28,498 nt of DNA from a virus, in IMG/VR virus record IMGVR_UViG_3300030380_003752, positions 1 through 28,498 of that record, one strand, 5' to 3'. The notes under the pieces are model-generated. The model was not told where the DNA came from. It worked only from the letters and a program-made list of their open reading frames with translations, and did not search any database. This document shows, one piece after another, positions 6,848 to 23,817 of the stretch. Position 1 is the first letter of the stretch. Each line of letters starts with the position of its first letter. The translations under genes were made by a program, and so were the position numbers.

Positions 6848-6859
6848 ATCTCAGTCTCC

Positions 6860-7705: not shown

Positions 7706-7790
7706 TTGCTTTCTCCTTCGCAAATTAAAAACAAGGTTTCACATCGCTTACGGTTGTCCATGAGGGCCGTGTATTGCGAGAACTGGCCGC

Positions 7791-7856: not shown

Positions 7857-7859
7857 ACT

Positions 7860-7873
7860 ATTGGCCATTGTAT
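7860..7873 (+). promoter_or_regulatory. Copy of the recurrent 14-base intergenic motif (site 5)
   Basis: ATTGGCCATTGTAT lies in the scaffold-coat gap, immediately downstream of the scaffold stop and just upstream of the terminator. It fits the consensus WTTRGCYWTTGTAW shared with sites at 14474, 18776, 19650 and 25641. Nothing resembling a -10 box is found at the right spacing on either strand here, so a protein-binding site is as likely as a promoter. Confidence 0.4.
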
Positions 7874-7879
7874 TACGCC

Positions 7880-11363: not shown

Positions 11364-11838
11364 CGTAAAACCTCACATACACATGATAATCATCACCCTC
11401 AGGACCGTAGGCCTTGAGAGTAGCTTCTTTGTCAAAATACAACGCTTCAGCAAAACGTGTCGCCTGTAAGTGAGATGAACGAACCATGAACTGCAATCGC
11501 CGCAGTTGCATAGCAGTACCAATCCTGTCGAAAACAATCCTTGCGCCCTTAATCAAGGCAATCGCTCTGCCATCAATATGATTGCTTGGCACCATCCAGC
11601 CTTCTCCCAGGCCTGGCCAGATGGGAAACACGCCAAAGGACAGGGCCACTTTTCCCTGGTCAATGATTGTAAAAGCAGGGGTTCCGGCTGTTGTCCGCTC
11701 CATATAGCGCAGATAATCCGGCATGGCGGCCCCTAACTCCCTGGCTTTGTCCTTCACATCCATCAGCGCAATATGACCATAGTGAAAGTCAACGCACCTA
11801 TGTCCGCACCAGGTTTCGATATCTTGAGCCGTCACCAT
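11329..11838 (-). CDS. Gp13-like protein with GNAT-type fold
   Basis: A 169-residue protein. The core (residues 50-150) resembles the T7 gp13/DUF2833 family, whose members look like GNAT acetyltransferases. It contains A-F-T-I-I-D-Q-G-K-V, then F-P-I-W-P-G-L-G-E-G-W-M-V-P-S, a helix ending in R-L-Q-F-M-V, a second helix with H-L-Q-A-T-R-F-A-E-A-L, and a final aromatic-rich strand. In T7 gp13 is needed for normal virion assembly. Here the gene sits directly after the large terminase (7-base overlap), not with the internal virion genes. Catalytic acetyltransferase activity is not shown by any motif I can see. The family call is moderate. Confidence 0.6.
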   Translation of the reverse strand: MVTAQDIETWCGHRCVDFHYGHIALMDVKDKARELGAAMPDYLRYMERTTAGTPAFTIIDQGKVALSFGVFPIWPGLGEGWMVPSNHIDGRAIALIKGARIVFDRIGTAMQLRRLQFMVRSSHLQATRFAEALYFDKEATLKAYGPEGDDYHVYVRFYDGRSFIKAKNA

Positions 11839-13382
11839 ATGTTGAAATCAGTCTTAGCCACGGCCTGTTGAAAGTTGTTGCGACTTGAGCCCCTGGTCAT
11901 GCGCCTATGCTCACCAGCCCCCAGGAGAAGATAGCCATAAGCATCGCCAACGTGGGATGAGTCATTCTTATTCGGCGCATCTCTAAATCTATCATTGCCG
12001 CCGGAGATACCCACACGCTTGAAGTGATAGCCACCAGCCAGGGCCTTCCTCAGCTTAGTACACCTGGCATTGACCCGCAGCCCAGGCTTACCATCCACCA
12101 GGCGCAACATAGGAGCGGCACCCGCTTCACGCCGCACCTGGAAGTCGTTTGACGCTGTAGGCTGTGCCTGGAAGCCTATGGTTCTCAAATGGTCAAAGGC
12201 CGTTACCTCAAAGATTTCATCGCGCTTCATACCCGCAGGGTCGCCCCAGACCTTCACCTCAAACTTAGGATACTTCATGTTCAACTCATACAGCAGCATC
12301 TGGCCGAACCGCTCTAACCCCATATCCTCTGTGACAATCTCATCCAGGATATGCCACTTGCCTGACGCATACCGCTGACCAATCACAGCCGCAGGGGTAA
12401 GGCCAAAGTCCAGGCCGACATGAAGGGGAAGGGAAAGGTCCAGGCCCAAGTCCTGGTCAACCATTATCGTGTCATCAAACTCATGCCAGACAGGCTTGCC
12501 CTCTTGAACATACACATACTTCCCGCCGATATAGCACTCAATCCAGTCAAGCTGTTTATCTCCTAGCTGCTGTTCATAATATCCAACAGGCAAGTTCTTC
12601 ACGTTCTCCGCCTTAGGATTGTTAGCCCACAACCGTCCGCCACCAGGCAAAGCATCAGGATTATCAGCCTGGCTCTCCAGCATACCAGGCGGCTGCTTGT
12701 AGAAGTTCCACTTGTACTTTCCGCGCACAGGCTCCTTCTCAGACAACCGAAACCACCAGTGGTCGTCTGGCATAGGGTTCGTGTCAGCCCATATCCCGCG
12801 CCAGGGGCAACCACCATTCGCCTTGGTAGGATAACGCCCCACGCGATGCGTGAGCCCCTGGACAATACTCAAGGGCAACTCTCTAGCCTCGTTTACCCAG
12901 GCCCCACTCAACTCCAATGACAACAGCTTCCGCACATCCTTAGGCTGGTCCAGGGCCAGGAATATAACCTCACAGTCAATCCCCGCAGCATCTCCCCTGG
13001 CTGGCAACTTAATATGATGGGTCAAGGGCGGCGACCAACGCATTGGTCCAAATATGTTTTCTGGGAAGAGTTCAAGCCAGGTCTTAATAGTAGTCGTCCG
13101 CAACTCAGGATAAGAGTTCCGCACCACCACAACCCTGCTATATCTCACTCCATCCTTAGGAGACACAGGCTGCTTAACAGCCCTCAGCATAACCTCAGCC
13201 GCACAGGCATAAGACTTGCCGGACCCCACAGGGCCCATCAATCCCCGAAAGAAAGCATCATCACCCAAGAACTTCCACACCGTAGGGCTGGTGCTAAAAT
13301 CCAGGTCTAACCCACCAAAGACCCCATCCGCGTCAGTCTTCCGCCTGGATGACCTGTCACTCGCTGCTTTCGTCCGACCCAT
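11832..13382 (-). CDS. terL: Terminase large subunit
   Basis: A 516-residue packaging ATPase-nuclease. I start it at ATG 13382 (MGRTKAASDRSS) because GAGGAAAG precedes it. Longer in-frame starts at 13394 and 13430 extend further into the small-subunit gene. The Walker A motif GPVGSGKS is at residues 50-57. An adenine/arginine-finger-like VVVVRNSYPELRTTTIKTW segment follows. Walker B is represented by LSGAWVNEA near residue 160. The C-terminal RNase H-like nuclease has its first acidic residue in VGLDFG, a second region in WGDPAG, and the last in SSHVGDAYGYLLLG. It docks on the portal to pump and cut DNA. It lies just after the small subunit, overlapping it by 26 bases. Confidence 0.93.
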   Translation of the reverse strand: MGRTKAASDRSSRRKTDADGVFGGLDLDFSTSPTVWKFLGDDAFFRGLMGPVGSGKSYACAAEVMLRAVKQPVSPKDGVRYSRVVVVRNSYPELRTTTIKTWLELFPENIFGPMRWSPPLTHHIKLPARGDAAGIDCEVIFLALDQPKDVRKLLSLELSGAWVNEARELPLSIVQGLTHRVGRYPTKANGGCPWRGIWADTNPMPDDHWWFRLSEKEPVRGKYKWNFYKQPPGMLESQADNPDALPGGGRLWANNPKAENVKNLPVGYYEQQLGDKQLDWIECYIGGKYVYVQEGKPVWHEFDDTIMVDQDLGLDLSLPLHVGLDFGLTPAAVIGQRYASGKWHILDEIVTEDMGLERFGQMLLYELNMKYPKFEVKVWGDPAGMKRDEIFEVTAFDHLRTIGFQAQPTASNDFQVRREAGAAPMLRLVDGKPGLRVNARCTKLRKALAGGYHFKRVGISGGNDRFRDAPNKNDSSHVGDAYGYLLLGAGEHRRMTRGSSRNNFQQAVAKTDFNIW

Positions 13383-13767
13383 CTCTTTCCTCATATTCTG
13401 TAACTGTAGGCCCATGCAGATTAATCCCAAGGACAGACGGCCTATCCGACTTCTCTAGCCCTGGCTCTAACAACCCATGATGTTTGGCCAACATCCGCAA
13501 AGCTGAGACCTTATCGTGCATCTCCACCTCAATCGCGTTCCCCATCCTGGTTGGCGTGACCTTCACCTTCTTAATCGCCTTCCTGGTATGCAATGGCACA
13601 TCCTTAGCATCCTTCAGCGTCACACGGCCCATCTCGTCCCAGGACATCACCTCAGTTATATCTGAAGCCGCAATGGTAGACAGTTCATGCTTGACCGCCT
13701 CTTTCTCATCATCAGTGCCAAAGACCAGGGCGTTCCGCGCCTGGCGGGTCGTAATCTTCTTGCTCAT
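13357..13767 (-). CDS. terS: Terminase small subunit
   Basis: A 136-residue protein preceding the large terminase. The segment from residue 30 to 100 follows the C-terminal pattern of Terminase_2-type small subunits: 'aasDi.evm.wDe.Grv.lkd...vplhtr.aIkkvk....g...ievemhdK..AL.mLakh.gll'. The N-terminal DNA-binding part is short compared with typical 150-180 residue members, only about 30 residues before the conserved region (MSKKITTRQARNALVFG). It either has a reduced DNA-binding domain or uses a partner. It starts at ATG 13767, overlapping the zinc-ribbon gene stop in ATGA. It would recognise the packaging site and stimulate the large subunit. Confidence 0.75.
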   Translation of the reverse strand: MSKKITTRQARNALVFGTDDEKEAVKHELSTIAASDITEVMSWDEMGRVTLKDAKDVPLHTRKAIKKVKVTPTRMGNAIEVEMHDKVSALRMLAKHHGLLEPGLEKSDRPSVLGINLHGPTVTEYEERDGSDESSE

Positions 13768-14057
13768 AGTTCATCCTCATCAAAGCGAACACTGCCATCA
13801 AAAATTGCTGACTCTAACTCCTCATCGCTCATGCCACTGAAATCCACAATCACAACATCCGGCTCAAGAACTGGTCCTTTGCGCTTCTTCACCTTCTTCG
13901 CAATCACAGGCTTGCGCTCCGGCGCGGCTTCCAAAACCTCAATCGTGCGGAACCTATGGCCGCAACCTGTACACACACGGCCCCGCCTGGTCGTGCCCCG
14001 CGCTTGCCTGGAATCGTAAACCTCAGTCCTTCTTTCGCATTTTGGACACAGCATCAT
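13764..14057 (-). CDS. Zinc-ribbon protein resembling the N-terminus of NrdR
   Basis: A 97-residue protein. Residues 4-42 hold CPKC...C(T)GC (C4, C7, C29, C32) with VYDSRQARGTTRRGRVC and HRFRTIEVL. This closely follows the zinc-ribbon layout of the ribonucleotide-reductase repressor NrdR ('CP.C......v.dSR......RRRR.C..CG.RFtT.E'). The ATP-cone that follows in true NrdR (about 100 residues) is absent. The rest is Lys-rich and then acidic (MSDEELESAIFDGS). ATG 14057 has AAGGA upstream. It sits directly before the small terminase and may bind DNA. Regulation of the operon or a packaging accessory role are both inferences. Confidence 0.6.
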   Translation of the reverse strand: MMLCPKCERRTEVYDSRQARGTTRRGRVCTGCGHRFRTIEVLEAAPERKPVIAKKVKKRKGPVLEPDVVIVDFSGMSDEELESAIFDGSVRFDEDEL

Positions 14058-14340
14058 TCACATCCTTCTCAATATCAGCTATTCCGCGCCCGATACCGCC
14101 ATAGCCAATAACATCCGCCCAGGAATCATCATGCGTGGGCTCATGAATAAGGCGGCTAAGTTTCACAGCAACCATGCACATGACCACTTGCTCAGGGCCT
14201 ATGTCCTTGCCCAACAGAACAGACCACAACTGGGCAGTTGCCACATGATTGGCATACGGGGTCCCGTAATTCTGATTCCGCGCCTTGAGGATGTCGGCCA
14301 CCGACTCTATGGATTCGACATAGCGGTCAATGTTGTTCAT
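14023..14340 (-). CDS. DUF6378-type protein
   Basis: A 105-residue protein from ATG 14340, with GGAG about 9 bases upstream; a longer frame back to 14403 has no ribosome site. It shows the DUF6378 pattern: R.Q.YG.p..N......W...lG..i.pe.v..mm..vKl.Rl....h.DsW.D..GY. The visible key residues are R21, Y25-G26, W39, K60, R63, D72-S-W-D and GY near residue 80. These proteins resemble all-alpha nucleotide pyrophosphohydrolases in layout, and some phages carry them near replication genes. No activity is proven; nucleotide metabolism or hydrolysis of a signalling nucleotide is an inference. It overlaps the zinc-ribbon gene by 35 bases. Confidence 0.7.
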   Translation of the reverse strand: MNNIDRYVESIESVADILKARNQNYGTPYANHVATAQLWSVLLGKDIGPEQVVMCMVAVKLSRLIHEPTHDDSWADVIGYGGIGRGIADIEKDVNDAVSKMRKKD

Positions 14341-14473
14341 GATGAAAATCTCCAAAATTTTGAGTGAACCCCCCGTATACACACGCGGACGGGGAGGGGG
14401 CAAGGTGCCTTTGTCAATGATTTCAATATGTTACGCAAAAAGCAGGGCCCCTTATACAATAGCAATGCCAGCG

Positions 14474-14487
14474 TTTGGCCTTTGTAA
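14474..14487 (+). promoter_or_regulatory. Copy of the recurrent 14-base intergenic motif (site 3)
   Basis: TTTGGCCTTTGTAA lies in the 157-base gap 14341-14497. An imperfect reversed copy (GCTATTGTAT on the minus strand, 14461-14452) sits about 10 bases away. The gap also holds a perfect minus-strand TTGACA (14417-14412) with no -10 box at normal spacing, and a G/C-run-rich leader before the DUF6378 gene. A promoter for the downstream packaging genes may be here, but no convincing -10 box is visible. Confidence 0.4.
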
Positions 14488-14497
14488 ATCCAGGCTA

Positions 14498-15169
14498 TCA
14501 TAATGCTGCCCATTGTGCGACCTGTTCGATTGTAAGCGGTGGCGTCCGGCCTTGCTTTAGGTTAGCCCTTGTCATCTCTATGGTTGCGGCCTTCACCTGG
14601 TCAGCCTTGACGCCACGTTCTGCCAGGACACGGGCGAAATCCTGGTTCGGTCCTGGCAATCTGCGCTGACCAGAAGCCAATTCCACGCCTAAAACGAACG
14701 CTTGTGCCAATATCTTAAAGTCAGCATTTCCACCCTCAGACTCCCTTCTAGTATGTGTTACAGCTTGCGTATCTTCATCGAGTGCCTCAGCCACCAGTTT
14801 CGGACGCGGTGCCCAGAATTGCTCCTTACTTGGCAGCTCTGTCTGTGCGCCATCGAATAGCACCTGGTATCTGTTGGTTCGCCAGGTGTTTTTGGCCTTT
14901 ATCTTTGGCGGGTAGCTTCTGGGGTGCAGCTTTCTGACGTAGCCAGCCTTTATCAACCTGGACACATGAACACTGACGGTCTTTGTACTGCGTGAGATAT
15001 GCCTGGCAATCGTCATCCTTGAGGGCCAGGCTATTCCATAAGCATTGGTATAAAGACATATGGCTCCAAGAACTCTGAGCGTTGTCCAGTGCAAGTCGTC
15101 ATCCTGTATGGCTCTTGCTGGCAATACACTATATTTCCTGATAGGCGGCTTAGAAGGGGATTGGGTCAT
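14498..15169 (-). CDS. Winged-helix DNA-binding protein, possible replication initiator or regulator
   Basis: A 223-residue protein from ATG 15169, overlapping the previous gene by 20 bases. Residues 10-90 form a winged helix-turn-helix: I-R-K-Y-S-V-L-P-A-R-A-I, a short helix (TLRVLGAICLYTN), G-I-A-W-P-S-R-M-T-I-A-R-H-I as helix 2, then STKTVSVHVSRLIKAGYVRK as the recognition helix and start of the wing. The remainder is Lys/Arg-rich and ends in a helical segment. This 'aWPS...lA...g.s..tV...i..L...GyI.k' arrangement is typical of phage replication-initiator-like and regulatory proteins. It lies downstream of the primase-helicase and a repeat cluster that could be its binding sites, but that link is inferred. 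Confidence 0.65.
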   Translation of the reverse strand: MTQSPSKPPIRKYSVLPARAIQDDDLHWTTLRVLGAICLYTNAYGIAWPSRMTIARHISRSTKTVSVHVSRLIKAGYVRKLHPRSYPPKIKAKNTWRTNRYQVLFDGAQTELPSKEQFWAPRPKLVAEALDEDTQAVTHTRRESEGGNADFKILAQAFVLGVELASGQRRLPGPNQDFARVLAERGVKADQVKAATIEMTRANLKQGRTPPLTIEQVAQWAAL

Positions 15170-15752
15170 CTGGCACTGTATCCTTTGGTTTCATGTCAGT
15201 TACTTTGGCACCACCGAAAGCCTCTTTAATCATCAACACAGTAGGCGGCACAAACTCAATCATCTCCTCAGCGCAGACATAAGCCACGCCGTCAGGCTTC
15301 ATCACAGGCATCTCTTCAGCGGTTCTGACCAGGCGTACTGTAATCCCTTCTGCTCTGGGGTGTTTCATCTCCCAGTAATCATTCGGGTCAATCGTTTTAC
15401 AGCCCAGCCTGTCAGCCTCTTTGTCCAGGACATCATAAGCCCTCTTCATAGAAGCCCCATGCTTTCGGATGTCAGCTTCATCATTCCTGGCCAGAGCAAT
15501 ATTAAACTTGTCGAGTTGAGCCTGGAACTTCTGACCCAGCGCATCATCAACCAGACGCTGCAACCTTCCGACCCCCCACTTCAATTCCATCTCCCTGGCA
15601 ACCATGTCATGAGCCTCGACAACCAACCTGGTTTCGGCGGACATTGGGACAGTGGGACAGGACTCTAGAGAGTGTCCTGTCCGTCCCGTCTGTCGGACAT
15701 TTGTCCCACGCTTGTCCCGTTTGCCGTAACCTCTTGTTTTCATTGCGGACAT
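15150..15752 (-). CDS. Unknown replication-region protein (200 aa)
   Basis: I do not recognise this protein. ATG 15752 is preferred because AAGGAG lies 9 bases upstream, while a frame back to 15908 would run inside the primase gene. The first ~35 residues are basic and low in hydrophobics (KTRGYGKRDKRGT) and are encoded by the GGGACA repeat cluster. They may therefore be a by-product of DNA-level repeats. The rest is a charged alpha/beta protein with no cysteine cluster, Walker motif or membrane segment, and it ends DDPIPF, an acidic-hydrophobic tail like those that recruit replication partners. It sits between primase-helicase and the winged-helix gene. A replication accessory is a reasonable inference. 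Confidence 0.6.
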   Translation of the reverse strand: MSAMKTRGYGKRDKRGTNVRQTGRTGHSLESCPTVPMSAETRLVVEAHDMVAREMELKWGVGRLQRLVDDALGQKFQAQLDKFNIALARNDEADIRKHGASMKRAYDVLDKEADRLGCKTIDPNDYWEMKHPRAEGITVRLVRTAEEMPVMKPDGVAYVCAEEMIEFVPPTVLMIKEAFGGAKVTDMKPKDTVPDDPIPF

Positions 15753-15774
15753 TTTGTCCCACTCCTTTGTCCCA
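15646..15774. repeat. Cluster of six GGGACA/TGTCCC repeats with palindromes, candidate origin or operator array
   Basis: GGGACA occurs at 15646 and 15654, and TGTCCC at 15702, 15713, 15755 and 15769, all within 129 bases. Between the two orientations lies an inverted repeat, GGACAGGAC and GTCCTGTCC, separated by about 10 bases (roughly 15655-15682). CGGACATT is repeated at about 15638, 15694 and 15746, and forms GGACA-TT-TGTCC palindromes at the second copy. The cluster covers the 5' end and ribosome site of the 200-residue gene next to the primase-helicase. Iteron-like repeats here suggest a replication origin or binding array, but this is not proven. Confidence 0.55.
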
Positions 15775-15777
15775 GGC

Positions 15778-17610
15778 CTAATTGCACTTCCAGACGAGAT
15801 TCTGCCATTTTGCCACGATTTTCTTCTGAACAAGCACCTCAGCAGCGCGGCTAAAAGCCTTCCTTTCGGCATCAGGATTGCCCGTTGATATGCTCTTTGC
15901 CAGGGCAACTTGACGCCAATAATTCTCCTGGACCACAGTCACGTTGCTGGGGTAGTTCTCTCCGCCTGGTGATGGTCCGCCATGTCTGATGAGGGCCTCA
16001 GTCAGGGCATCCAGGACAGCTTTCTGCGCTGGTCTCAGCTTGCTTGTGTTGCCGCTTGGCTGCTGGTCTGTCCTATCTAGGACCAGGCTTGTCTCTACAT
16101 CCAAGGCGAGGGCGTCAGTTTCTACCTCTACGCTGACTGTGTTCATCCATATTGGGTCCAGCATCTCAGCGTCCTTTTGCTTCTCTACAACCAGGCTGAC
16201 TGTCTCTCCAACCCGCTCCACCTTCATAGATGCGTCAACGGCTCCCAGGATTGCAGAACTGCCCCTGGCTCCTCTGGCACTGTCCTTGCCACTGTGATGA
16301 ATAGCCATGACACAGCAGTTGAACGCCTCTCTGACGCCATCCATAGCCCTGATGGCCTGGCCTATATCCTGGGAAGAGTTCTCATCGCCTGTCATGCTTC
16401 TGGCCAGTGTGTCGAATATCACCAGGGAGACAGGCCCGTCAGCTACAGCCTGGATAGTCAGGTGAAGGTCAGCCGTGTTGTGTTCATCCAATAGGTCAAC
16501 CGCACTGGGAACCACGACAAACGGGGCCTGTTGGCTCAACCCTTTATGTATATGCCAGGCAGCTATTCTCTTTTTGAGACCGCCGACACCTTCACCCGCC
16601 ACATATACAACCTGGCCACCTGTTACAGTCTGTGACTGCCAAGCCACCTGATGGGCAACACTCAAGGCCATATCCAGGGCAATGAAAGTCTTACCGCAGC
16701 CAGGCTCTCCATACATCATGGTCAGGCTTTTCTCCGGCATCAGCCCTTCTACTAGCCATTCTACAGGCGGAAGCTGTGCAATATCGCCCAGCGTAAGGAC
16801 GGGCAGGGGTGTGACCCGCTCAGTTACCTCTTGTGCGGCCTTTATCAGGTCCCTGAGGGCTTTTGCATCGCCGCCCTGGTGCAACCAGTCAGAAACATCG
16901 CCCTTGTCCCCTACGGGCAACCTGACGACCTTTATGCGCCTGGCTATGCCCTGGAGATTGCCCAGGATAGTCTTAACGTGCTTTTCGCCGGCCTGGTCAT
17001 TGTCCGGCAGAATAATAATATCACGCCCTGTAAAGTATCTGTTGAGACTTTCAGCCCACTTGCCAGCCCCGCCACTGTTACAAGTCGCAACAAAACCCAG
17101 GTGTGTTAGCGCATCAGCGTCCTTCTCACCCTCAACCACCAGGACAGGCTTGTCTGGATTGCTGATGATGTCCGGCAGCTTATAGGGCAGGGGCTCTGTA
17201 TCACCCAGGCCCCAGGTCGTTTTGCCATTGACCACACGCCTCTGCCGGAAGGTCTTAGGCTCGAACCGTAACACCTCATATGTAACCTCGCCGTCCTCAT
17301 TGACATAAGGATAGGTCGCTACCAGGGAAGTCCTGATAGTGTCATGACCGTTGCGCTGCGGCTTGTCGGTCTCAATGCCCAGGCCTTCCAGGACATCATT
17401 TATATCTGCTAAAGGATTATCTCTGCGGATAAGGTCAATGACCCCGCCGCCTGTATCATTTTCATGGTCGAACCAGGTGCCTTTTGCCAGGTCTACTGAC
17501 ATTGACCCATGATTTCCCCAGCGTAATTCGCTTGAACTGGACAGTTTCGGGTTCGGCTCTCCCAACAAAGCCTTGGCGACTGTCTCTATATGTTGTGAAA
17601 TCTCTGACAT
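15778..17610 (-). CDS. Bifunctional primase-helicase (TOPRIM plus RepA-like AAA)
   Basis: A 610-residue protein starting at ATG 17610. The N-terminal ~100 residues have W-F-D-H-E...G-G-G-V-I-D-L, as in primase N-termini, but no zinc-binding cysteines. The TOPRIM domain is at about 154-245: VLVVEGEKDADAL with E160, and IIILPDNDQAG with D203 and D205. A RecA/RepA-like AAA domain (AAA_25 type) follows: Walker A GEPGCGKT at 301-308, Walker B VIFDTLARS around 397-405, and the sensor-like HHSGKD at 438-443 with GARGSSAI after it. A C-terminal helical part is rich in basic residues. It would prime and unwind DNA for replication with a host polymerase. It is preceded by a terminator-like hairpin overlapping its leader. 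Confidence 0.9.
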   Translation of the reverse strand: MSEISQHIETVAKALLGEPNPKLSSSSELRWGNHGSMSVDLAKGTWFDHENDTGGGVIDLIRRDNPLADINDVLEGLGIETDKPQRNGHDTIRTSLVATYPYVNEDGEVTYEVLRFEPKTFRQRRVVNGKTTWGLGDTEPLPYKLPDIISNPDKPVLVVEGEKDADALTHLGFVATCNSGGAGKWAESLNRYFTGRDIIILPDNDQAGEKHVKTILGNLQGIARRIKVVRLPVGDKGDVSDWLHQGGDAKALRDLIKAAQEVTERVTPLPVLTLGDIAQLPPVEWLVEGLMPEKSLTMMYGEPGCGKTFIALDMALSVAHQVAWQSQTVTGGQVVYVAGEGVGGLKKRIAAWHIHKGLSQQAPFVVVPSAVDLLDEHNTADLHLTIQAVADGPVSLVIFDTLARSMTGDENSSQDIGQAIRAMDGVREAFNCCVMAIHHSGKDSARGARGSSAILGAVDASMKVERVGETVSLVVEKQKDAEMLDPIWMNTVSVEVETDALALDVETSLVLDRTDQQPSGNTSKLRPAQKAVLDALTEALIRHGGPSPGGENYPSNVTVVQENYWRQVALAKSISTGNPDAERKAFSRAAEVLVQKKIVAKWQNLVWKCN

Positions 17611-17619
17611 AATCACCCC

Positions 17620-17654
17620 AAAAAAAGGGGCGGAGAGCCTAAACCCCCCACCCC
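17620..17654 (-). terminator. Terminator-like hairpin just upstream of the primase-helicase start
   Basis: On the minus strand GGGGTGG (17654-17648) can pair with CCGCCCC (17633-17627), with one G-U pair. Seven T residues (17626-17620) follow immediately. The T run is directly followed by GGGGTG, the only G-rich sequence that could serve as ribosome site for the primase-helicase, whose ATG is at 17610. It may therefore act as an attenuator after the SSB gene, limiting primase-helicase expression. Confidence 0.55.
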
Positions 17655-17663
17655 AGGCACTGG

Positions 17664-18185
17664 CTAGAATAACGGCTCATCATCTTCCTGGGCCTCTTTT
17701 GGCTCAGGGGCAGGGGGTGTATCTGCCTGAGGCATATCATTCCATTTGACCAACTCGAAATTTGGGATGCGAGTTGCACCCTTGCCGCTGGTGTCAGCGG
17801 TGGAGCCAGTGTATTTCAGTCCCGCAACCTTGCCCTTATTGTCCTTCATGCCATCATGAATAGACTTCCAGACACCGCTGAGGCCCTTGTTGACGCCAGC
17901 CCCGTTAGATGACCACTCGCGCCAGCCTACGTCCTTGATGTAAACCATCACACTAAAGCCACGCTTATATTCACCGTCTGGCCGTGGGCCCTTGACGCCA
18001 ACTTGTTCGTCCCACACCCATTGAGGGGCTTCACCCTCTTGAATAAGGCCCCAGCCTGTCTTCAGTGAGTCAGGATTGAGAGACATACCCTTGAGGTCGA
18101 ACTCTTCCCCGTCAACATACCAGGCGTTTACTGAAGGCTTGAAGCGGATGTACTCACCGCCGGAACCATTATCTAAATCAAGCAT
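17664..18185 (-). CDS. Probable single-stranded DNA-binding protein
   Basis: A 173-residue protein from ATG 18185. The main domain is beta-rich with many aromatics (Y-I-R-F-K-P, A-W-Y-V-D-G-E-E-F-D, W-G-L-I, Q-W-V-W-D-E, V-G-W-R-E-W). The C-terminal 30 residues are Pro/Glu/Asp-rich and end DDEPLF, like the DDIPF tip with which SSBs recruit replication proteins. Position between a resolvase-like nuclease and the primase-helicase fits. It is not a classical Ssb by sequence, and belongs to a phage family often left unnamed. It overlaps the nuclease gene by 8 bases. Confidence 0.6.
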   Translation of the reverse strand: MLDLDNGSGGEYIRFKPSVNAWYVDGEEFDLKGMSLNPDSLKTGWGLIQEGEAPQWVWDEQVGVKGPRPDGEYKRGFSVMVYIKDVGWREWSSNGAGVNKGLSGVWKSIHDGMKDNKGKVAGLKYTGSTADTSGKGATRIPNFELVKWNDMPQADTPPAPEPKEAQEDDEPLF

Positions 18186-18540
18186 TTCCTATTTCTCCTT
18201 GCTCGTTTTCTTTTTGAACCCAGCCCATTTTGATAGCCATGATGGCCATCAGGGGTTCTGGGATAATGTACAAGCGAGGCTTGCGGTCTGCTCTGACCAC
18301 TAATAAATCAGCCTCATCTTGCTCGAACCAGTCGTAGAGGCTCTTGAAGCCACTACCACCCTTACGCCGCTTACACTCGACCAGGAGCCCATTTAGTTTG
18401 AGGTCTCCCGCCAGGTCTGCGGAGTAATTCTTAAATGCGCCTGACCCCAGGATGCGGTGACAGGGGACGCCTAATTTCGTCCAGAAATCTTGCACTTCTT
18501 TTTCGAGTTCATAGCCCCGCCGCTTGTTTCGGCTAGTCAT
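18178..18540 (-). CDS. Holliday-junction-resolvase-like PD-(D/E)XK nuclease
   Basis: A 120-residue protein with the Hjc/VRR-like nuclease pattern: an N-terminal basic start with acidic helix (RRGYELEKEVQDFW, E11-E15), G-S-G-A-F-K-N..S-A-D-L-A-G-D with catalytic D42, then LLVECKRRKGGSGFKSLYDWF with E55-x-K57, followed by A-D-L-L-V-V-R-A-D. All three catalytic elements (E, D, ExK) are present. It would cut branched DNA or junctions in replication or before packaging. ATG 18540 overlaps the ribbon-helix-helix stop in ATGA, so both are made from the same leftward message. Confidence 0.8.
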   Translation of the reverse strand: MTSRNKRRGYELEKEVQDFWTKLGVPCHRILGSGAFKNYSADLAGDLKLNGLLVECKRRKGGSGFKSLYDWFEQDEADLLVVRADRKPRLYIIPEPLMAIMAIKMGWVQKENEQGEIGNA

Positions 18541-18737
18541 CTGACGCTCTTGGCAATATTTTCTAGATGTTCAAGCTGGGTCTTATGGCTATTGAAATCA
18601 CTTTCACGCCTGGCAAGACCCTCTGTCAGCAATTCTTCAGCCAAACTTGAGACACTGCGCCTTTGGCTCTTTGCCGCAGATTTAAGCAGTTCTCTCAATG
18701 ATTTAGAGAGGTAAAGCTGCTGTTGCTGTACGTCCAT
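18537..18737 (-). CDS. Ribbon-helix-helix (Arc/CopG-like) DNA-binding protein
   Basis: A 66-residue protein. ATG 18737 has AAGGTG upstream; a GTG two codons earlier is unlikely. It shows the Arc/CopG layout: a short strand (QQLYLSKSL), helix A (SLRELLKSAAKSQ), a turn with R-R-S-V-S, and helix B (SSLAEELLTEGLARRE), then a charged tail. Its gene is the first of the leftward replication operon and lies next to the divergent promoters sharing one -35 box. It is therefore a natural candidate for autoregulation and for the early switch. The operator is not proven; a palindrome TTGTA-A-TACAA lies on the shared -35. Confidence 0.8.
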   Translation of the reverse strand: MDVQQQQLYLSKSLRELLKSAAKSQRRSVSSLAEELLTEGLARRESDFNSHKTQLEHLENIAKSVR

Positions 18738-18760
18738 TTTCACACCTTTTTAAAAAAAAT

Positions 18761-18789
18761 TGTATAAAAGTACCATTTAGCCATTGTAA
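18761..18789 (-). promoter_or_regulatory. Leftward sigma70-like promoter of the replication operon
   Basis: On the minus strand TTACAA (18789-18784) and TATACA (18766-18761) are separated by 17 bases. Transcription would begin near 18754, about 17 bases before the ribbon-helix-helix ATG. The -35 hexamer is the reverse complement of the -35 of the rightward promoter, so both occupy the same six base pairs and cannot fire at once. Confidence 0.7.
18776..18789 (+). promoter_or_regulatory. Copy of the recurrent 14-base motif (site 1)
   Basis: TTTAGCCATTGTAA. It contains the -35 hexamer used by both divergent promoters. It is the copy nearest to the ribbon-helix-helix gene and is shared almost exactly with site 2 (one base different). 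Confidence 0.6.
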
Positions 18790-18812
18790 TACAACTCCAA
18801 TGCACTTATATT
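18784..18812 (+). promoter_or_regulatory. Rightward sigma70-like promoter P1, with overlapping palindrome
   Basis: TTGTAA (18784-18789), a 17-base spacer, then TATATT (18807-18812). Start is expected near 18819, about 29 bases before the first gene. The upstream bases TTTAGCCA are shared with P2. An 11-base palindrome, TTGTA-A-TACAA (18784-18794), overlaps the -35 box and could be a repressor operator. Confidence 0.75.
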
Positions 18813-18847
18813 GAAGGTGTAAGAGAGATGAACAACAGGAGAAAGTG

Positions 18848-19045
18848 ATGACTAAAGCAGAAAAAAGAGCGTTGCGGATAAGGGGAATCATGATGCAGGA
18901 CAAAATGCTTTCCCCATTCATCAACAACTTTGATGTGTACTTCATGCACACAAAGGACCCTGAAAAAGCCCTGGAACTAGTCCTTCCTGACTACGTTCCT
19001 GGCCAGAAAATCGCGGTAATTATTAAGGAGGCTGCCAATGCCTAA
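18848..19045 (+). CDS. First gene of rightward operon, unknown (65 aa)
   Basis: A 65-residue, Lys/Met-rich protein. ATG 18848 has AGGAG 6 bases upstream; a GTG directly before it is a weaker choice. It starts MTKAEKRALRIRGIM, followed by a helical region, then PEKALELVLPDYVPGQ and a charged end. No known domain, membrane segment or cysteine pair is visible. As the promoter-proximal gene of the early operon it could be a host-takeover or anti-restriction factor, but this is speculation. It overlaps the next start by 8 bases. Confidence 0.75.
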   Translation: MTKAEKRALRIRGIMMQDKMLSPFINNFDVYFMHTKDPEKALELVLPDYVPGQKIAVIIKEAANA

Positions 19046-19382
19046 GACACCACAAGTAAAGCCCGACTGGGCGACAGGAATTTATATTGGAAACGGGGTG
19101 GTTGCCACCCCAACAACTGCGCCCACTGAGTACCAGGTTGTCGGCCTGGGCAATGCACCCTGCGAGACATTCAAAACCGTTGCTGAGTTAGAGGCTTTCA
19201 TGGCCTACCACGGCAAAGAACACGCCGGATATTTCGAGCGGCATAAGCGGGATGATGGCAGCTATGTTCAGCGGGAGATATTAGAGGGTGCGCCAAAGTT
19301 CAAGGACATGGCGGGTCCGATGGGTAACGGTGACGGTCTGCGGTACGAGACCTGGGCTGTCTATGACTTGATGAGTAAATAG
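19038..19382 (+). CDS. Unknown early protein (114 aa)
   Basis: A 114-residue protein starting at ATG 19038 with AAGGAGG upstream. It contains an N-terminal Pro/Thr-rich strand region (G-I-Y-I-G-N-G-V-V-A-T-P-T), a central helical part (F-K-T-V-A-E-L-E-A-F-M-A-Y-H-G-K) and an aromatic end (Y-E-T-W-A-V-Y-D-L-M). No cysteine motif, Walker motif or membrane segment is seen, and I cannot name a family. It belongs to the small-gene block behind P1. Confidence 0.75.
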   Translation: MPKTPQVKPDWATGIYIGNGVVATPTTAPTEYQVVGLGNAPCETFKTVAELEAFMAYHGKEHAGYFERHKRDDGSYVQREILEGAPKFKDMAGPMGNGDGLRYETWAVYDLMSK

Positions 19383-19393
19383 GAGACTGCTTG

Positions 19394-19654
19394 ATGTACG
19401 AAGTAGGACAGGAAATCTATTACACGGGCGACATGGCCAACCGCAGCGGCTGGGGCAAGATAACCAAGGTCGAGCCCTGCAAGTGGTACGAATACAAATA
19501 CACACTTGAGATGGAAGACGGGCGGGTCAAGCATTTGACCCCATACGTCATTGGCGAGGTCTATGAGGGCCACGCCGGAACGCGGTTCGTAACGCTTGAG
19601 GCTTACAAGGCCTACAAGAAAAAAGTCTGGGCACAGTATGAGAGTGCCGTTTAG
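19394..19654 (+). CDS. Unknown early protein (86 aa), small beta-rich
   Basis: An 86-residue protein from ATG 19394, with AGGAG 9 bases upstream. It reads like a small beta-barrel: VGQEIYYTGDMANRSGWGKI, then Y-E-Y-K-Y-T-L-E-M-E-D-G-R-V-K-H-L-T, and a C-terminal Lys-rich helix (AYKAYKKKVWAQYE). The 'vGq.iyytgd.an..gwG.i..v' opening is seen in small phage proteins of unknown function. The stop codon TAG is part of promoter P2's upstream motif (TTTAGC). Confidence 0.7.
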   Translation: MYEVGQEIYYTGDMANRSGWGKITKVEPCKWYEYKYTLEMEDGRVKHLTPYVIGEVYEGHAGTRFVTLEAYKAYKKKVWAQYESAV

Positions 19655-19686
19655 CTATTGTAAATTAGGTGAAGAAACCCTATATA
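19650..19686 (+). promoter_or_regulatory. Second rightward promoter P2, carrying motif site 2
   Basis: TTTAGCTATTGTAA (19650-19663) contains TTGTAA as -35 (19658-19663). A 17-base spacer leads to TATATA (19681-19686). The upstream 14 bases match P1 except one, and the -35 to -10 spacing is identical, so P1 and P2 are related. Expected start near 19693 gives a leader of only about 13 bases before ATG 19706. Confidence 0.7.
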
Positions 19687-19705
19687 AGAAGTGAAGGGAG
19701 TAAGT

Positions 19706-19855
19706 ATGACAACAGCAATAGGGTTCCTGGCTTTCATGGTCAAGTTTCCAACCGCCAAGTTAGAAGAGTTGCTTGAGCGGTTCGCGGAGTTGCCAACAGA
19801 AGAGAAAGCCAAGGTCAAGGAAGCGTTCAAGACTGTAGATAAGGAGACAGCATGA
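19706..19855 (+). CDS. Tiny helical early protein (49 aa)
   Basis: ATG 19706 follows GAAGGGAG and P2. The protein begins MTTAIGFLAFMVKFPTAKLE, a short hydrophobic start, then a charged amphipathic helix (ELLERFAELP, TEEKAKVKEA), and ends DKETA. No family is recognised. The stop overlaps the next ATG (ATGA). Its tail and the next gene's start are encoded by a 23-base sequence repeated 304 bases downstream. Confidence 0.6.
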   Translation: MTTAIGFLAFMVKFPTAKLEELLERFAELPTEEKAKVKEAFKTVDKETA

Positions 19856-19860
19856 CTAAG
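19838..19860 (+). repeat. 23-base ribosome-site/start repeat, copy 1
   Basis: This 23-base sequence contains AAGGAG, the stop-start overlap ATGA and the first codons of the next gene. It recurs without change at 20142-20164, while the flanking bases differ. A shorter match (AGGAGACAGCATGA) is at 20298-20311. It covers the junctions of adjacent small genes. Confidence 0.8.
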
Positions 19861-19986
19861 GTTGAGGCTATAAAGTATTGGAAAGATATGCTTAAGGCCC
19901 TCAAGCGGAATAAGGCAAGCCCAGGCAATGGGTTCGCTAAGGTCAAGTGTGTAGAAAAATTAGCTGAGTTGGGAGTAGCAGCATGA
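19852..19986 (+). CDS. Tiny basic early protein (44 aa)
   Basis: A Lys-rich protein (MTKVEAIKYWKDMLKALKRN, then KASPGNGFAKVKCVEKL). ATGA overlaps on both sides, so it is translationally coupled. AAGGAG lies 6 bases upstream, inside the previous gene's end. Function unknown; the basic charge allows nucleic-acid or protein binding but shows nothing specific. Confidence 0.55.
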   Translation: MTKVEAIKYWKDMLKALKRNKASPGNGFAKVKCVEKLAELGVAA

Positions 19987-20159
19987 GTGAAAAGAAATTT
20001 GTAAAGCTGATTGGCCGCAACGGTAAAGAGGCAATCGGCGTTTGGGTAGGCGACTCAATCAAAGTCAAAAATGAGGAGGGTGCCTGGACACCAATTACAT
20101 GGAAAGACTTTGGCGGAGAGGCTGAGATTATCCACAACCTTGATAAGGAGACAGCATGA
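19983..20159 (+). CDS. Small early protein (58 aa), probable beta fold
   Basis: It starts MSEKKFVKLIGRNGKEAIGV and has strand-like segments (G-V-W-V-G-D-S-I-K-V, A-W-T-P-I-T-W). It ends DKETA, the same five residues as the 49-residue protein upstream. This is because both stops lie in copies of the repeated ribosome-site sequence. Function is unknown. ATGA overlaps at both ends. Confidence 0.6.
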   Translation: MSEKKFVKLIGRNGKEAIGVWVGDSIKVKNEEGAWTPITWKDFGGEAEIIHNLDKETA

Positions 20160-20164
20160 CTAAG
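20142..20164 (+). repeat. 23-base ribosome-site/start repeat, copy 2
   Basis: Identical to 19838-19860. It spans the end of the 58-residue gene and the start of the 46-residue gene. Such repeats could let homologous recombination add or remove small genes without disturbing the operon. Confidence 0.8.
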
Positions 20165-20296
20165 AATCAGTTTGTAATCATTTGTAATAAATACGGTATT
20201 CACCCCGCACTGGCATTAGAAAATGATGAATTAGTCGCGCTTCTTAAAGAAAAAAAATATCACAAAGTCGAAGCGTTTATAAAGAACAACTACTAA
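20156..20296 (+). CDS. Tiny early protein (46 aa)
   Basis: MTKNQFVIICNKYGIHPALA, then L-E-N-D-E-L-V-A-L-L-K-E-K-K-Y-H-K-V. The ATG lies in the second copy of the 23-base repeat, so its first codons match those of the 44-residue gene. The mix of a short hydrophobic strand and a charged helix gives no clear fold. A 12-base gap with AGGAG leads to the next gene. Confidence 0.55.
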   Translation: MTKNQFVIICNKYGIHPALALENDELVALLKEKKYHKVEAFIKNNY

Positions 20297-20307
20297 TAGG
20301 AGACAGC

Positions 20308-20655
20308 ATGAGTATTCAGTTTTATAATGATGAGTTAGCCCATATGACAGGCGGCAAGATAATCCACGATAGCCTGGACTATGACCCAAAAATGTATAAG
20401 ACCTGTGCGGCTGCGGCTAAGGGATTGTATAAGGCCTTATGTAAACGGGCTGCGGCTGAGGGGCAGAAGCCTGAGATGGAAGTCGCCATCTGGACTCCAG
20501 AAGAAAACTTCAAACGGGACGGGACCAAGGCCTGGCGGGTTAGCTGGGAAGCGGGGCCGTATGAATGGGCCATTGGCGCGAGTTACAAAATCACTGGGCC
20601 CTGGGGTTATACCGAACCCTACTACAGCTTTGACCTTGAGTTTGTCGAGGCATAG
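20308..20655 (+). CDS. Unknown early protein (115 aa), aromatic-rich
   Basis: A 115-residue protein from ATG 20308 with AGGAG upstream. It has an N-terminal region, a helix rich in Ala and Lys (CAAAAKGLYKALCKRAAAEG), then an aromatic C-terminal half (A-W-R-V-S-W-E-A-G-P-Y-E-W-A-I, G-P-W-G-Y-T-E-P-Y-Y-S-F-D-L-E-F). Two cysteines lie in or next to the helix, but not in a metal-binding pattern. No family is recognised. Its stop lies 2 bases before the recombinase ATG. Confidence 0.75.
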   Translation: MSIQFYNDELAHMTGGKIIHDSLDYDPKMYKTCAAAAKGLYKALCKRAAAEGQKPEMEVAIWTPEENFKRDGTKAWRVSWEAGPYEWAIGASYKITGPWGYTEPYYSFDLEFVEA

Positions 20656-20657
20656 TG

Positions 20658-21356
20658 ATGGCACCGCACTCCGGCAAGTTCGTTGTATATCTCAGGGTTT
20701 CAACCCCACGCCAGGGTCAATCTGGCCTGGGTATTGAGGCCCAGCGAGATATCATCGACCAACATTTGAACGGCGGCGACTGGGAGGTCATCGCCGAATA
20801 CACTGAACACGAGAGCGGCAAGCGGTCTGATAGGCACCGTAAACAACTAAAGGCCGCTCTTGACCATTGTAAGCGCGAGGGAGCCACGCTTATCATCGCA
20901 AAGATTGACCGTCTGACTCGTAACCTGGCCTTTTTGACCAGGCTGTTAGAGCAAGGCGTCCCTGTCATTGCGTGTGACATACCTCAGATGCACAACCCAG
21001 CCGCTACAAAATTTGTCTTGCAACTCATGGCCAATATTGCTGAGTATGAGGCGGAGATAATATCTGAGCGGACCAAAGCAGCCTTGGGCGCAAAGAAGGC
21101 AAGGGGAGAAAAGCTAGGGTCTCCGGCACCAGAGAAGGGAGCCCGTAAGGGCGGGGCAGCTACCCAGGCATCAGTCGATGAGTGGGCAGAAGAACTGCGC
21201 CCTATCATAGAAGACTTGAGGGCTTATGGGTGTGACACATTACAGAAGCTGGCAGACGGCCTGACGGCCAGAGGTGCCAAAACATTTAGAGGCAAAACAA
21301 CCTGGGCCCTTAGTTCGGTCCGCAACTTAGTGAGGCGTTTAGATGAACGACATTGA
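20658..21356 (+). CDS. Serine recombinase (resolvase/invertase family)
   Basis: A 232-residue recombinase starting at ATG 20658. The catalytic serine is S15 in YLRVST. Other family motifs are E-A-Q-R at 27-30, DRLTR at 84-88, and ISERTK at 135-140 in the long E helix. The C-terminal ~60 residues contain a short helix-turn-helix part with R-G-K-T-T-W. It is far shorter than the 450-600 residue large serine integrases, so it may be a small resolvase/invertase or a compact integrase. No integrase of the tyrosine type is seen in the window, so this may be the lysogeny enzyme or resolve multimers. Which one cannot be decided here. It overlaps the next gene by 14 bases. Confidence 0.9.
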   Translation: MAPHSGKFVVYLRVSTPRQGQSGLGIEAQRDIIDQHLNGGDWEVIAEYTEHESGKRSDRHRKQLKAALDHCKREGATLIIAKIDRLTRNLAFLTRLLEQGVPVIACDIPQMHNPAATKFVLQLMANIAEYEAEIISERTKAALGAKKARGEKLGSPAPEKGARKGGAATQASVDEWAEELRPIIEDLRAYGCDTLQKLADGLTARGAKTFRGKTTWALSSVRNLVRRLDERH

Positions 21357-21807
21357 GCAAAAAATCATATCTGAGTATGCAGTTGCTTTGGCTAAGTGGC
21401 AGATTGAACTCTATCAGGGCAGACAAACTCGCATGGACAATCATATACAGCGTTACTTTAACTCGACACCTGTTAGAAATACTTTTGCGCGGATGATGTT
21501 TCTTGCCTACCAAGATGACAAGTCACTTTACACAAAAGCAGTAATTTCAAGACAGTTGCATATCACACGACAAGCCGCCTCACTGATGGTTGATGACTGT
21601 CTGGCGGAAGGGTGGATTGAAACTTGTGGAAATGGCTACAAAGCAAGTCAAGCCTTAGCCGATAAGGTGATGAACTATGTTGAGTTTCATATAGACACAC
21701 TGACAAGAAACCCCGTCACTGACCTCTATGTGTCTTTGCGTTCATACCAACGAGCGCATGACAAAAAAGCGTCAAGTGACTTTACGTCTAAACGTGTAGC
21801 CAGTTGA
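21343..21807 (+). CDS. MarR-like winged-helix protein
   Basis: A 154-residue protein. Residues about 60-105 form a winged helix: S-L-Y-T-K-A-V-I-S as first helix, RQLHITRQAASLMVDDCLAEG as helix-turn-helix, and WIETCGNGYKAS as the wing. Helical regions flank it, with many Lys and Ser at the C-terminus. MarR-type dimeric regulators look like this. The gene begins the CCWGG-poor block and is A/T-richer than the recombinase before it, so it may be imported. It could regulate the following genes or lysogeny; no operator can be assigned. Confidence 0.65.
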   Translation: MNDIEQKIISEYAVALAKWQIELYQGRQTRMDNHIQRYFNSTPVRNTFARMMFLAYQDDKSLYTKAVISRQLHITRQAASLMVDDCLAEGWIETCGNGYKASQALADKVMNYVEFHIDTLTRNPVTDLYVSLRSYQRAHDKKASSDFTSKRVAS

Positions 21808-21835
21808 TATTGATTTTAATTCTCAGGTGAACAAA

Positions 21836-22249
21836 ATGAGTAAAGAACGAGACAAGAAGGTGAAGATGACGCGATATGGCAGAATGACAGATGCTCAGAA
21901 GTCACTCCAAATGGCGCGGGAAGTGTGGGACATCCATAAAGGGTCTGCCACATCACGGGCCAAGCGATGGGCAAATGAGGAGCATTATCAGAAGACTCTG
22001 GGCGGAAGGTCAGCGGTGCGGATAACGCTCCCTGCACTCAAGTCCAGTCACCTGGACAATGCCATCTATCATCTCAAACATCTGGTTGCTGAACTTGAGG
22101 ATGTACAAAAACAGGAGACTAACACACAGTCTAAAATGTTTTACATGCGGAGTCTCGTTTATACCTGTCACCGCAATCTGAAGCATGACGCAGATAGGGG
22201 ATACAGTAATCCTATGCGACCTGATGAGGACTTTCGTGGTGCAAGGTAG
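21836..22249 (+). CDS. Unknown accessory protein (137 aa), helical and basic
   Basis: ATG 21836 has AGGTG 7 bases upstream; a GTG at 21827 is an alternative. The protein has a Lys/Arg-rich start (MSKERDKKVKMTRYGRMTDA), a middle with V-R-I-T-L-P-A-L and S-H-L-D-N-A-I-Y-H-L-K-H-L, then a coiled-coil-like helix and R-N-L-K-H-D-A-D. No family recognised. It lies in the CCWGG-poor block. Confidence 0.65.
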   Translation: MSKERDKKVKMTRYGRMTDAQKSLQMAREVWDIHKGSATSRAKRWANEEHYQKTLGGRSAVRITLPALKSSHLDNAIYHLKHLVAELEDVQKQETNTQSKMFYMRSLVYTCHRNLKHDADRGYSNPMRPDEDFRGAR

Positions 22250-22322
22250 AAAATCAATATATAGTAGGTCAGACGCGGAAACCGTTTGGCTATCGCATAA
22301 TCTAGTAGGAAAGGATAGTTTC

Positions 22323-22601
22323 GTGCAAGAACAACAACCTACAATAACCAAACCTAAGAACTTGTCGCATAATATATATTCACACTACAAAGTCGGCAAC
22401 CACAACATCTTGAACCACATAATTAACGCAACTGACCAGACTAGGTTAGTCAGTAACGATGAGAGACGGTTCTCCCTCAAAGAAATTTTCACTTTCATTC
22501 TTGAGTTTGCGGCACTCCTGATTGCGTTTGGTGTGTTTGTCTTTTTTATATCAATCTCTGATGGCCTTGACCAGCATATGATTGAGTGGATGGGGCGGTA
22601 A
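22323..22601 (+). CDS. Small protein with C-terminal membrane segment
   Basis: I place the start at GTG 22323 (92 residues) because GGAAAGGA lies 8 bases upstream. A longer frame back to ATG 22185 would overlap the previous gene by 65 bases. The N-terminal ~55 residues are polar, and residues about 60-80 (F-I-L-E-F-A-A-L-L-I-A-F-G-V-F-V-F-F-I) form one membrane helix, followed by a short acidic tail with H-M-I-E-W. This tail-anchored layout suits an inner-membrane protein with a cytoplasmic domain. Superinfection exclusion or host-membrane modification are possible but not shown. It belongs to the CCWGG-poor block. Confidence 0.55.
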   Translation: MQEQQPTITKPKNLSHNIYSHYKVGNHNILNHIINATDQTRLVSNDERRFSLKEIFTFILEFAALLIAFGVFVFFISISDGLDQHMIEWMGR

Positions 22602-22603
22602 TC

Positions 22604-23581
22604 ATGGTTGGTAAACTCACATCAGATGCCAGGTTATCTGGCCACGTTGCCCCTGTGTTGATGGGGCAGTCTCACCCGACATATGGCATGAGCCAGAATG
22701 ATTTAATGGCAAAAATTCTTAACGCTCAGGGCAAGGGTAATTTTAAAGTTCAGCCCTTCACGGGGTCTGAAGCTGCTGACCACGGCAATGAGTTAGAGCC
22801 TTACATAATCGAAAAGGCCGCTGAACGGTTGGGCATTGAAAAAATAAATAAAGAAGTCACAGAGGTGTTTGACTATGAAGACCTCTTCTCTGTCAGCCTG
22901 GACGCTATCTTTTACAACAAAGCAAGAGACATCCAGGCGTCTGACAGTGTGATTCTAATGAATGGCAAGGACACCATGAGCCTGGAAGGCAATGGGATAT
23001 GTGAGAGCAAACTGACCTCAGCGTCCTTTGTAGAGTCACCACCGCCTTACCGTGGCCCCTGGCAGCTACAGATGCAGATGATGTGCTACGGCGCATCCTG
23101 GGGCGTTATAGCTACGTTTTACCAGGGCACACGCCTGGTCCTCAATGTGTATGAGCGCGATGAGGAGATGCAGCGTCAACTGGTCGAGGCGGCAAAGGAC
23201 TTCTATGAACGCCTGGACGGGCCTGACTGGTATCCGGCAATGAACAGCGCGGACGCTGCCAGGACTTATGAGCGCGGAGAAGACCACCTTCCGGCTGTAG
23301 ACCTGGAGCCCATAGCTGAACTGGCCATGCAATACTTTGACGCCAAAAGAGCGGCTAAAGCGTCTGAAGCCCTGGCTAAACAGCTTGAGCCTAAAATCAT
23401 GGACCGCATGGGCAATCATGACAAGGCGTTTCTCAAGGATGAAAAGGGTGAGATAATGTTTGAGTTGTCCTGGCCTATGCGTAGCTTCAAGGCGCAGCCA
23501 GAAAAGACAACGCCAGCAAAGCCAGCCAGGATTGAGAGGCAGAAGTCTTTGACCATTGCAGCGAAGTGGATGAACGTATGA
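22604..23581 (+). CDS. YqaJ/lambda-exonuclease-family viral recombinase nuclease
   Basis: A 325-residue protein from ATG 22604, with GGGGCGG just upstream. The lambda-exonuclease fold is recognised by H60-G-N-E63-x-E65-P in the first helix, S-V-S-L-D100 as the acidic strand, E134-S-K136 (GICESKLTSA) as the ExK motif, and Q154-x-Q-x-Q158 (WQLQMQMMCYG) in the next helix. The C-terminal part has a coiled helical region and a basic end. It would resect DNA ends 5' to 3' for single-strand annealing recombination. No annealing partner such as Beta/RecT is visible nearby. It stops in an ATGA overlap with the LexA-type gene. Confidence 0.88.
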   Translation: MVGKLTSDARLSGHVAPVLMGQSHPTYGMSQNDLMAKILNAQGKGNFKVQPFTGSEAADHGNELEPYIIEKAAERLGIEKINKEVTEVFDYEDLFSVSLDAIFYNKARDIQASDSVILMNGKDTMSLEGNGICESKLTSASFVESPPPYRGPWQLQMQMMCYGASWGVIATFYQGTRLVLNVYERDEEMQRQLVEAAKDFYERLDGPDWYPAMNSADAARTYERGEDHLPAVDLEPIAELAMQYFDAKRAAKASEALAKQLEPKIMDRMGNHDKAFLKDEKGEIMFELSWPMRSFKAQPEKTTPAKPARIERQKSLTIAAKWMNV

Positions 23582-23817
23582 GCCTTACAAAAAGACAAAA
23601 GGATGTCCTGGACTTCATCGTGGATTACCAGGTAGAGAAGGGGTACAGTCCTACCTATGCGGAGATTGCTGACGGGGTAGGGGTATCATCTATCGGGGGC
23701 GTTGCCGCTCATGTCAAAAAGATTGAGGCCAGGGGATATATCAAAACCCTGCCAGGTAACAGGCGCATGATTGAAGTCATAAAGACTACTGTGCTAGCTG
23801 GTGCGCTTGCTCCCTAG
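23578..23817 (+). CDS. Stand-alone LexA-type DNA-binding domain protein
   Basis: A 79-residue protein starting at ATG 23578 in ATGA overlap with the nuclease gene. The sequence LTKRQKDVLDFIVDYQVEKG, then S-P-T-Y-A-E-I-A-D-G-V-G-V, S-S-I-G-G-V-A-A-H-V-K-K-I-E-A-R-G-Y-I follows the LexA N-terminal winged helix closely. The C-terminal protease domain (about 120 residues, with Ser-Lys dyad) is absent, so it cannot cleave itself in response to DNA damage. It may bind LexA-type or phage operators. It ends inside the endolysin gene on the other strand (32-base convergent overlap). Confidence 0.8.
   Translation: MSLTKRQKDVLDFIVDYQVEKGYSPTYAEIADGVGVSSIGGVAAHVKKIEARGYIKTLPGNRRMIEVIKTTVLAGALAP

Follow-up and report, generated by a model that had tools for sequence, protein, structure and literature searches.

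Among the closest described systems is the immunity I region of phage P22, where, as at the locus analysed here, a small phage ribbon-helix-helix (RHH) repressor (Arc, Mnt) lies beside an early promoter that is its presumed target. Arc is autoregulated, according to a reference cited in PMC2629481. P22 is temperate, has two RHH repressors and has an antirepressor gene as the target, whereas our locus has a single RHH gene heading a replication operon, no recognised antirepressor and different half-sites. A similar example is found in the RelB/relO system of Escherichia coli, where dimers of the RHH protein RelB, a repressor of its own operon, sit on phased half-sites inside the promoter (PMC2812701). 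The RelB half-site TTGTAATTACAA and hexad [A/T]TGT[A/C]A resemble TTGTAATACAA of our locus (PMC2812701). However, RelB controls a toxin–antitoxin operon through adjacent half-sites with no spacing allowed, whereas in the family described below 22 or 33 bp separate the half-sites, and the palindrome that resembles the RelB site is not conserved. Insertion of a full helical turn between the RelB half-sites did not restore repression (PMC2812701), and tolerance of both 22 and 33 bp is therefore not automatic for an RHH protein.

The divergent switches of lambda (CI/Cro) and TP901-1 (CI/MOR) have back-to-back divergent promoters around an operator, and bistability normally needs two mutually opposing repressors, such as CI and MOR of TP901-1 (PMC7250872). 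Our locus, in contrast, lacks a divergent repressor gene, and a second promoter there is not supported by relatives. Among named phages the closest is Methylophilales phage MEP301, of the MEP301-type marine phages, with a terminase 65% identical, a matching leftward replication and late arm, and a matching rightward arm of small genes, recombinase and YqaJ; no related RHH protein was found in it, and its intergenic DNA is without AGTACC half-sites. No phage RNA polymerase was found in MEP301 (PMC8024684), and since this nearest named phage reportedly lacks a gene for one, the host RNA polymerase is likely to transcribe our phage.

The window, meaning the whole stretch of DNA that was analysed, is an entire IMG/VR virus record (28,498 bp), which is classified as linear and may be a fragment. 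It has the divergent gene blocks already described in the initial annotation, with replication genes to the left and small, recombination and regulator genes to the right. The leftward genes (866-18743 and those right of 23786) include structural, terminase, primase-helicase and nuclease genes, and the rightward ones (18845-23817) comprise small unknown genes, a serine recombinase, a helix-turn-helix protein, a RecE/YqaJ-like exonuclease and a lone LexA-type domain. The stretch between them is best explained as a control region separating two transcription arms of a genome like that of a small tailed phage. The genes referred to below are:

15778-17616, minus strand: primase-helicase of the leftward operon
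17664-18185, minus strand: 173-aa protein of unknown family, following the nuclease in the leftward operon
18178-18540, minus strand: PDDEXK/RusA-like Holliday-junction nuclease, second gene of the leftward operon
18537-18737, minus strand: RHH protein of 66 aa, ATG at 18737
18743-18748, minus strand: Shine-Dalgarno AAGGTG of the RHH gene
18848-19045, plus strand: first rightward gene, 65 aa from its ATG, function unknown
20655-21356, plus strand: small serine recombinase, 233 aa, Resolvase domain only
21343-21807, plus strand: helix-turn-helix protein of the distal rightward operon, weakly MarR-like (MarR_2 below its cut-off)
22586-23581, plus strand: RecE/YqaJ-like exonuclease
23566-23817, plus strand: LexA-type DNA-binding domain alone, 83 aa, distal rightward operon

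The LexA-type domain is without its peptidase part and overlaps the end of the exonuclease gene; a gene for such a domain is found at the equivalent place in three relatives (L004, L005 and L007). The skew minimum was weighed as a possible replication origin and rejected, since the skew turns again with gene orientation near 24 kb and is explained by coding bias. Searches for RNA families and tRNAs found none.

The RHH gene does open the leftward block, as had been claimed: its product passes the PF07878 (RHH_5) cut-off narrowly (26.9 bits against 26) and matches the PHROG family phrog_3431, an Arc-like repressor, at 1.3e-5. A monomer model has helices at residues 12-24 and 29-48, the N-terminal strand forming only in the dimer, and a fold search with this model gives RHH proteins as the leading PDB matches, Arc structures among them, all at E > 0.5. 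Residues Q5 and Y9 of the predicted reading strand are invariant in relatives. The gene is real, and in this family, as in several distant clades, it heads the leftward replication operon.

Relatives were gathered by searching with the sequences of the RHH protein, nuclease and primase-helicase; 17 loci, counting the window itself, proved to be close, and many more were distant. Across the close loci the block 18746-18833 can be aligned gap-free. When viral contigs were scanned with a conserved 18-mer DNA pattern, the family loci were recovered together with one extra relative, L117; two other candidates, L114 and L118, were discarded as chance 18-mer matches within genes. Among 50,697 phage records neither the DNA of the control region nor the RHH protein had a match. 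The elements considered within the control region are:

18761-18766, minus strand: claimed leftward -10 box TATACA, not conserved among relatives
18769-18776, plus strand: intact half-site AGTACCAT, conserved form AGTACC(G/A)T, score 12.7
18779-18786, plus strand: conserved core immediately ahead of the -35 box and extending into it, window form AGCCATTG, form in nearly all relatives GGCTATTG
18784-18789, plus strand: rightward -35 box TTGTAA, at the same aligned position in 17/17 close loci
18784-18794, no strand: palindrome TTGTA-A-TACAA, in one subclade only
18800-18807, minus strand: degenerate partner half-site ATGCACTT, in relatives A(C/T)GGTACT, 33 bp from the left one
18807-18812, plus strand: rightward -10 box TATATT, 17-bp spacer from the -35 box
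18813-18847, plus strand: conserved rightward leader with Shine-Dalgarno AGGAGAAA, kept though the downstream gene varies

The letters and coordinates of the RHH gene, the palindrome and the two promoters proposed in the initial annotation are all as it gave them. Of the two promoters, the rightward one (TTGTAA-17-TATATT, 18784-18812) withstands comparison and is real, being conserved in the close relatives. Its boxes match the consensus at 4/6 and 5/6 positions, and a site with 9/12 matches arises in 17% of dinucleotide shuffles of the intergenic DNA. In every one of the 17 close loci, the window among them, it is the top plus-strand promoter and its spacer is 17 bp long; its -35 box becomes a perfect TTGACA in three lineages (L006/L007/L008, L015 and L023) and TTGCAA in L005 and L009-L011. 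The mean score over nine representatives is 7.8 bits, whereas 400 permutations of the alignment columns, a procedure that preserves sequence relatedness, reach 6.46 at most. TTGACA-like and TATAAT-like boxes, 17 bp apart and conserved, are what a sigma-70 promoter should have, and the predicted rightward promoter is strongly supported. We also sought a conserved leader peptide encoded in the rightward 5′ region and rejected it, as the reading frame is not preserved among relatives.

An operator beside this promoter had likewise been proposed, and this part of the proposal is likely to be right, though the conserved element is an AGTACC(G/A)T half-site and not the palindrome. The latter is carried only by the window, L002, L003, L019, L022, L027 and L104, a single subclade, and is absent from L004, L005, L006-L011, L015 and L023; palindromes with 5-bp arms are expected in 38% of dinucleotide shuffles. 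What is conserved instead, the half-site, lies 15 bp to its left. In the window the left half-site alone is strong, no second strong one being found there, and the best inverted repeat of this single locus is not significant (P=0.18). In relatives the rightward -35 box sits between two half-sites, usually inverted with respect to one another: the partner is 33 bp away, against the rightward -10 box, in L003, L019, L022, L027, L104 and L009-L011, and 22 bp away, inside the spacer, in L023. The last has identical 8-bp arms (AGTACCGT/ACGGTACT) whose GTAC cores are separated by 22 bp, and L009-L011 carry these arms too, at a distance of 33 bp; taken per single locus, the inverted-repeat P values are 0.005 for L009 and L023 and 0.03 for L010. 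Other arrangements are seen in L006/L007, where the second half-site copy is direct, not inverted, at 22 bp, in L004, where the right half-site is kept and the left lost, and in L015, which has the core at 0 and +22 and a variant at +33. The conserved core (AGCTATTG in L004) occurs at the divergent region once per genome searched, and the combined motif is repeated neither elsewhere in the window nor in three longer relatives, with none at a second promoter.

Two further sequences were noted. An outer repeat, ACACCTT/AAGGTGT, was rejected as an operator (P=0.18 for this locus), its arms being ribosome-binding sites or purine-rich leader. At 22277-22302, AAACCGTTTGGCTATCGCATAAT has 12 bp (CCGTTTGGCTAT) in common with the core that relatives conserve; this site falls within a possible reading frame (22185-22601), and no clear promoter is seen there.

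The reading we prefer, with a probability of roughly 0.6, is that the early promoter would be under negative control by the RHH protein, acting as an Arc/CopG-like autoregulator and serving as a timing device, not as a two-state switch. One host-type sigma-70 early promoter would fire rightward into the conserved leader and exchangeable small early genes. The RHH protein would most likely bind the AGTACC(G/A)T half-sites that bracket the rightward -35 box, the left one just upstream of the box and its partner 22 or 33 bp rightward, within the spacer or abutting the -10 box. With dimers bound, the promoter would be covered, and so would the start region of the RHH gene. Early transcription would then be shut down and the protein would limit itself, giving negative-feedback timing; its own synthesis would be turned down because the left half-site lies just upstream of the start region of its gene. 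The weak right half-site of the window may mean looser control there, or control by a single dimer. The gene, the conservation of the promoter, the phased inverted half-sites of relatives and the preserved gene order are observed; that the protein binds these half-sites, and that binding means repression, we infer from position, conservation and protein family. If right, uncultivated marine phages would have a recognisable control centre, made up of a conserved early promoter, an RHH gene heading the replication operon in several distant clades and an operator with half-sites readable from sequence. The RHH autorepressor type is itself already known, and the noteworthy detail is the apparent variation of half-site spacing by whole helical turns; natural 22-bp and 33-bp operators with the same half-site would be a ready test of the phasing of RHH cooperativity.

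Since the window has one strong half-site, its RHH protein might also repress only its own operon through one site, either AGTACCAT or the palindrome, which resembles the RelB hexads [A/T]TGT[A/C]A (PMC2812701), with the rightward promoter a constitutive early one. We consider this unlikely, as the palindrome is absent in most relatives despite the invariant Q5 and Y9, and the relatives' second half-site abuts or overlaps the rightward -10 box or spacer, not a leftward promoter.

The initial annotation had favoured a different arrangement, in which a leftward promoter (TTACAA 18789 to 18784, TATACA 18766 to 18761, 17-bp spacer) uses the same -35 box as the rightward one, polymerases at the two exclude each other, and the whole forms a bistable switch with the RHH protein as repressor. 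The letters do fit this genome, and about 0.6% of shuffled sequences have a 9/12 site and a 7/12 site falling on the same hexamer, an overlap that was noticed post hoc; TTGTAA and TTACAA are alike in composition. The leftward site alone, with 3/6 and 4/6 consensus matches (7/12), is at chance level: at least one such site occurs in 98% of dinucleotide shuffles of the intergenic DNA (mean 3.3, observed 3). Its mean score over nine representatives is negative (-1.15), and in the three TTGACA lineages (L006/L007/L008, L015, L023) the leftward -35 box would read TGTCAA. The best leftward score anywhere in the aligned block is 1.46, matched by 55% of column permutations (P=0.55), and no conserved leftward promoter stands above chance anywhere in 18746-18833. 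A further point in favour comes from L009-L011, where the box TTGCAA reads the same in both directions and TACAAT or TTCAAT lies 19 bp away leftward. A leftward promoter built from the reversed rightward -10 box (TATAAG/TATAGT) was also tried and rejected as not above chance. Support for both promoters, with one hexamer used both ways, was thus not found, and the argument for polymerase exclusion is unsupported because the leftward promoter on the shared box is unsupported. A shared -35 box that is striking in one genome can fail once relatives are compared.

The switch itself fares no better, as no opposing repressor is seen and the first rightward gene is a non-regulatory small gene that differs in most relatives; two opposing divergent repressor genes with back-to-back promoters are not present. 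The two distal rightward DNA-binding proteins, the helix-turn-helix protein (21343-21807) and the LexA-type domain (23566-23817), could in principle oppose the RHH protein, but nothing ties them to the control-region DNA. Nor is there a sign of lysogeny among the genomes searched, because the primase relatives in bacterial and archaeal genomes are distant: matches in 84,980 such genomes reach at most 43% identity over most of the protein, compared to full-length relatives of up to 84% identity in viral contigs. A nuclease search of genome contigs found no relative, and a primase profile reached distant ones only. Taken together, we regard a switch built on a shared -35 box as quite improbable.

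A role as activator, for example by raising the output of a weak leftward promoter at the time the replication genes are required, would suit TACAAT (18764-18759, minus strand), a better aligned leftward -10 candidate that lacks a good consensus -35 box in the manner of activator-dependent promoters and has the conserved half-site just upstream, and RHH proteins can both activate and repress (AmrZ, PMC3325190), but no leftward -10 box is conserved above chance and the geometry equally suits occlusion of the rightward promoter, so that we hold this to be very improbable.

Parts of this arrangement recur in more distant loci. An RHH-like gene heads the leftward operon also in L073/L074 and L111/L112, and likewise in the L032-L048 group, L130/L146, L134-L141, L145, L155, L172 and L205 (primase about 39-51% identical); in most distant loci the RHH assignment is by sequence pattern, Pfam giving no match for L038 and L039 and only sub-threshold ones for L073 and L111. 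With P values again standing per single locus, other inverted repeats around the same promoter are found in L073/L074 (15-bp arms; P=0.005), L038 (AGTGCTAT..ATAGCACT; P=0.03), L138/L141 (ATGTACTATA(G); P=0.007/0.010) and L139/L172 (TTGCTATC..GATAGCAA; P=0.010/0.083), and no significant one in L130, L134, L136, L137, L146, L205 or L039. The L032-L043 group has two arm separations, exactly 11 bp apart in length. We tentatively raise the possibility that the RHH operator evolves by whole helical turns, its two half-sites lying exactly 22 or 33 bp apart in one clade and differing in spacing by an exact 11-bp insertion or deletion in another. If true, two dimers or a tetramer of dimers would have to meet on one face of the DNA, with the promoter held in a short loop or wrap and the recognition sequence free to change between clades.

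Some distant loci show other features. In the L032-L048 group an exact 11-bp insertion or deletion lies between the arms AGTGCTAT and A(T/C)AGCACT, upstream of the RHH-like gene, and a rightward promoter TTGA..-17-CATATT overlaps the right arm. At L075 (3400-4004), L077 (3264-3867) and similar loci, a Cro-type helix-turn-helix gene replaces the RHH gene, with a divergent helix-turn-helix gene opposite. These loci have the nuclease gene in common with the window family, and the type of regulator has apparently been swapped at one control point; a Cro-type protein facing a divergent one is the classical two-repressor layout that is absent from the window.

On the rightward side, relatives of the first gene are found in L002, L004 and L019, and weaker ones in L006 and L023; a small protein family with the pattern ..LPDY.PG.. 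is present in the window, L002, L004, L006, L019 and L023. Across 16 loci the genes that come first on this side, behind the conserved leader, fall into at least nine or ten unrelated families. The slot behind the leader (18813-19045) would thus appear to hold exchangeable early genes, as expected of anti-host or anti-defence genes.

One distant relative lies in a bacterial genome. A 65-kb Candidatus Puniceispirillum genome contig carries a primase relative (39% identity) at L203 (1-13341), where the adjoining gene looks by eye like a tyrosine integrase, and L203 is a possible prophage and a possible hint of the host for the wider family.
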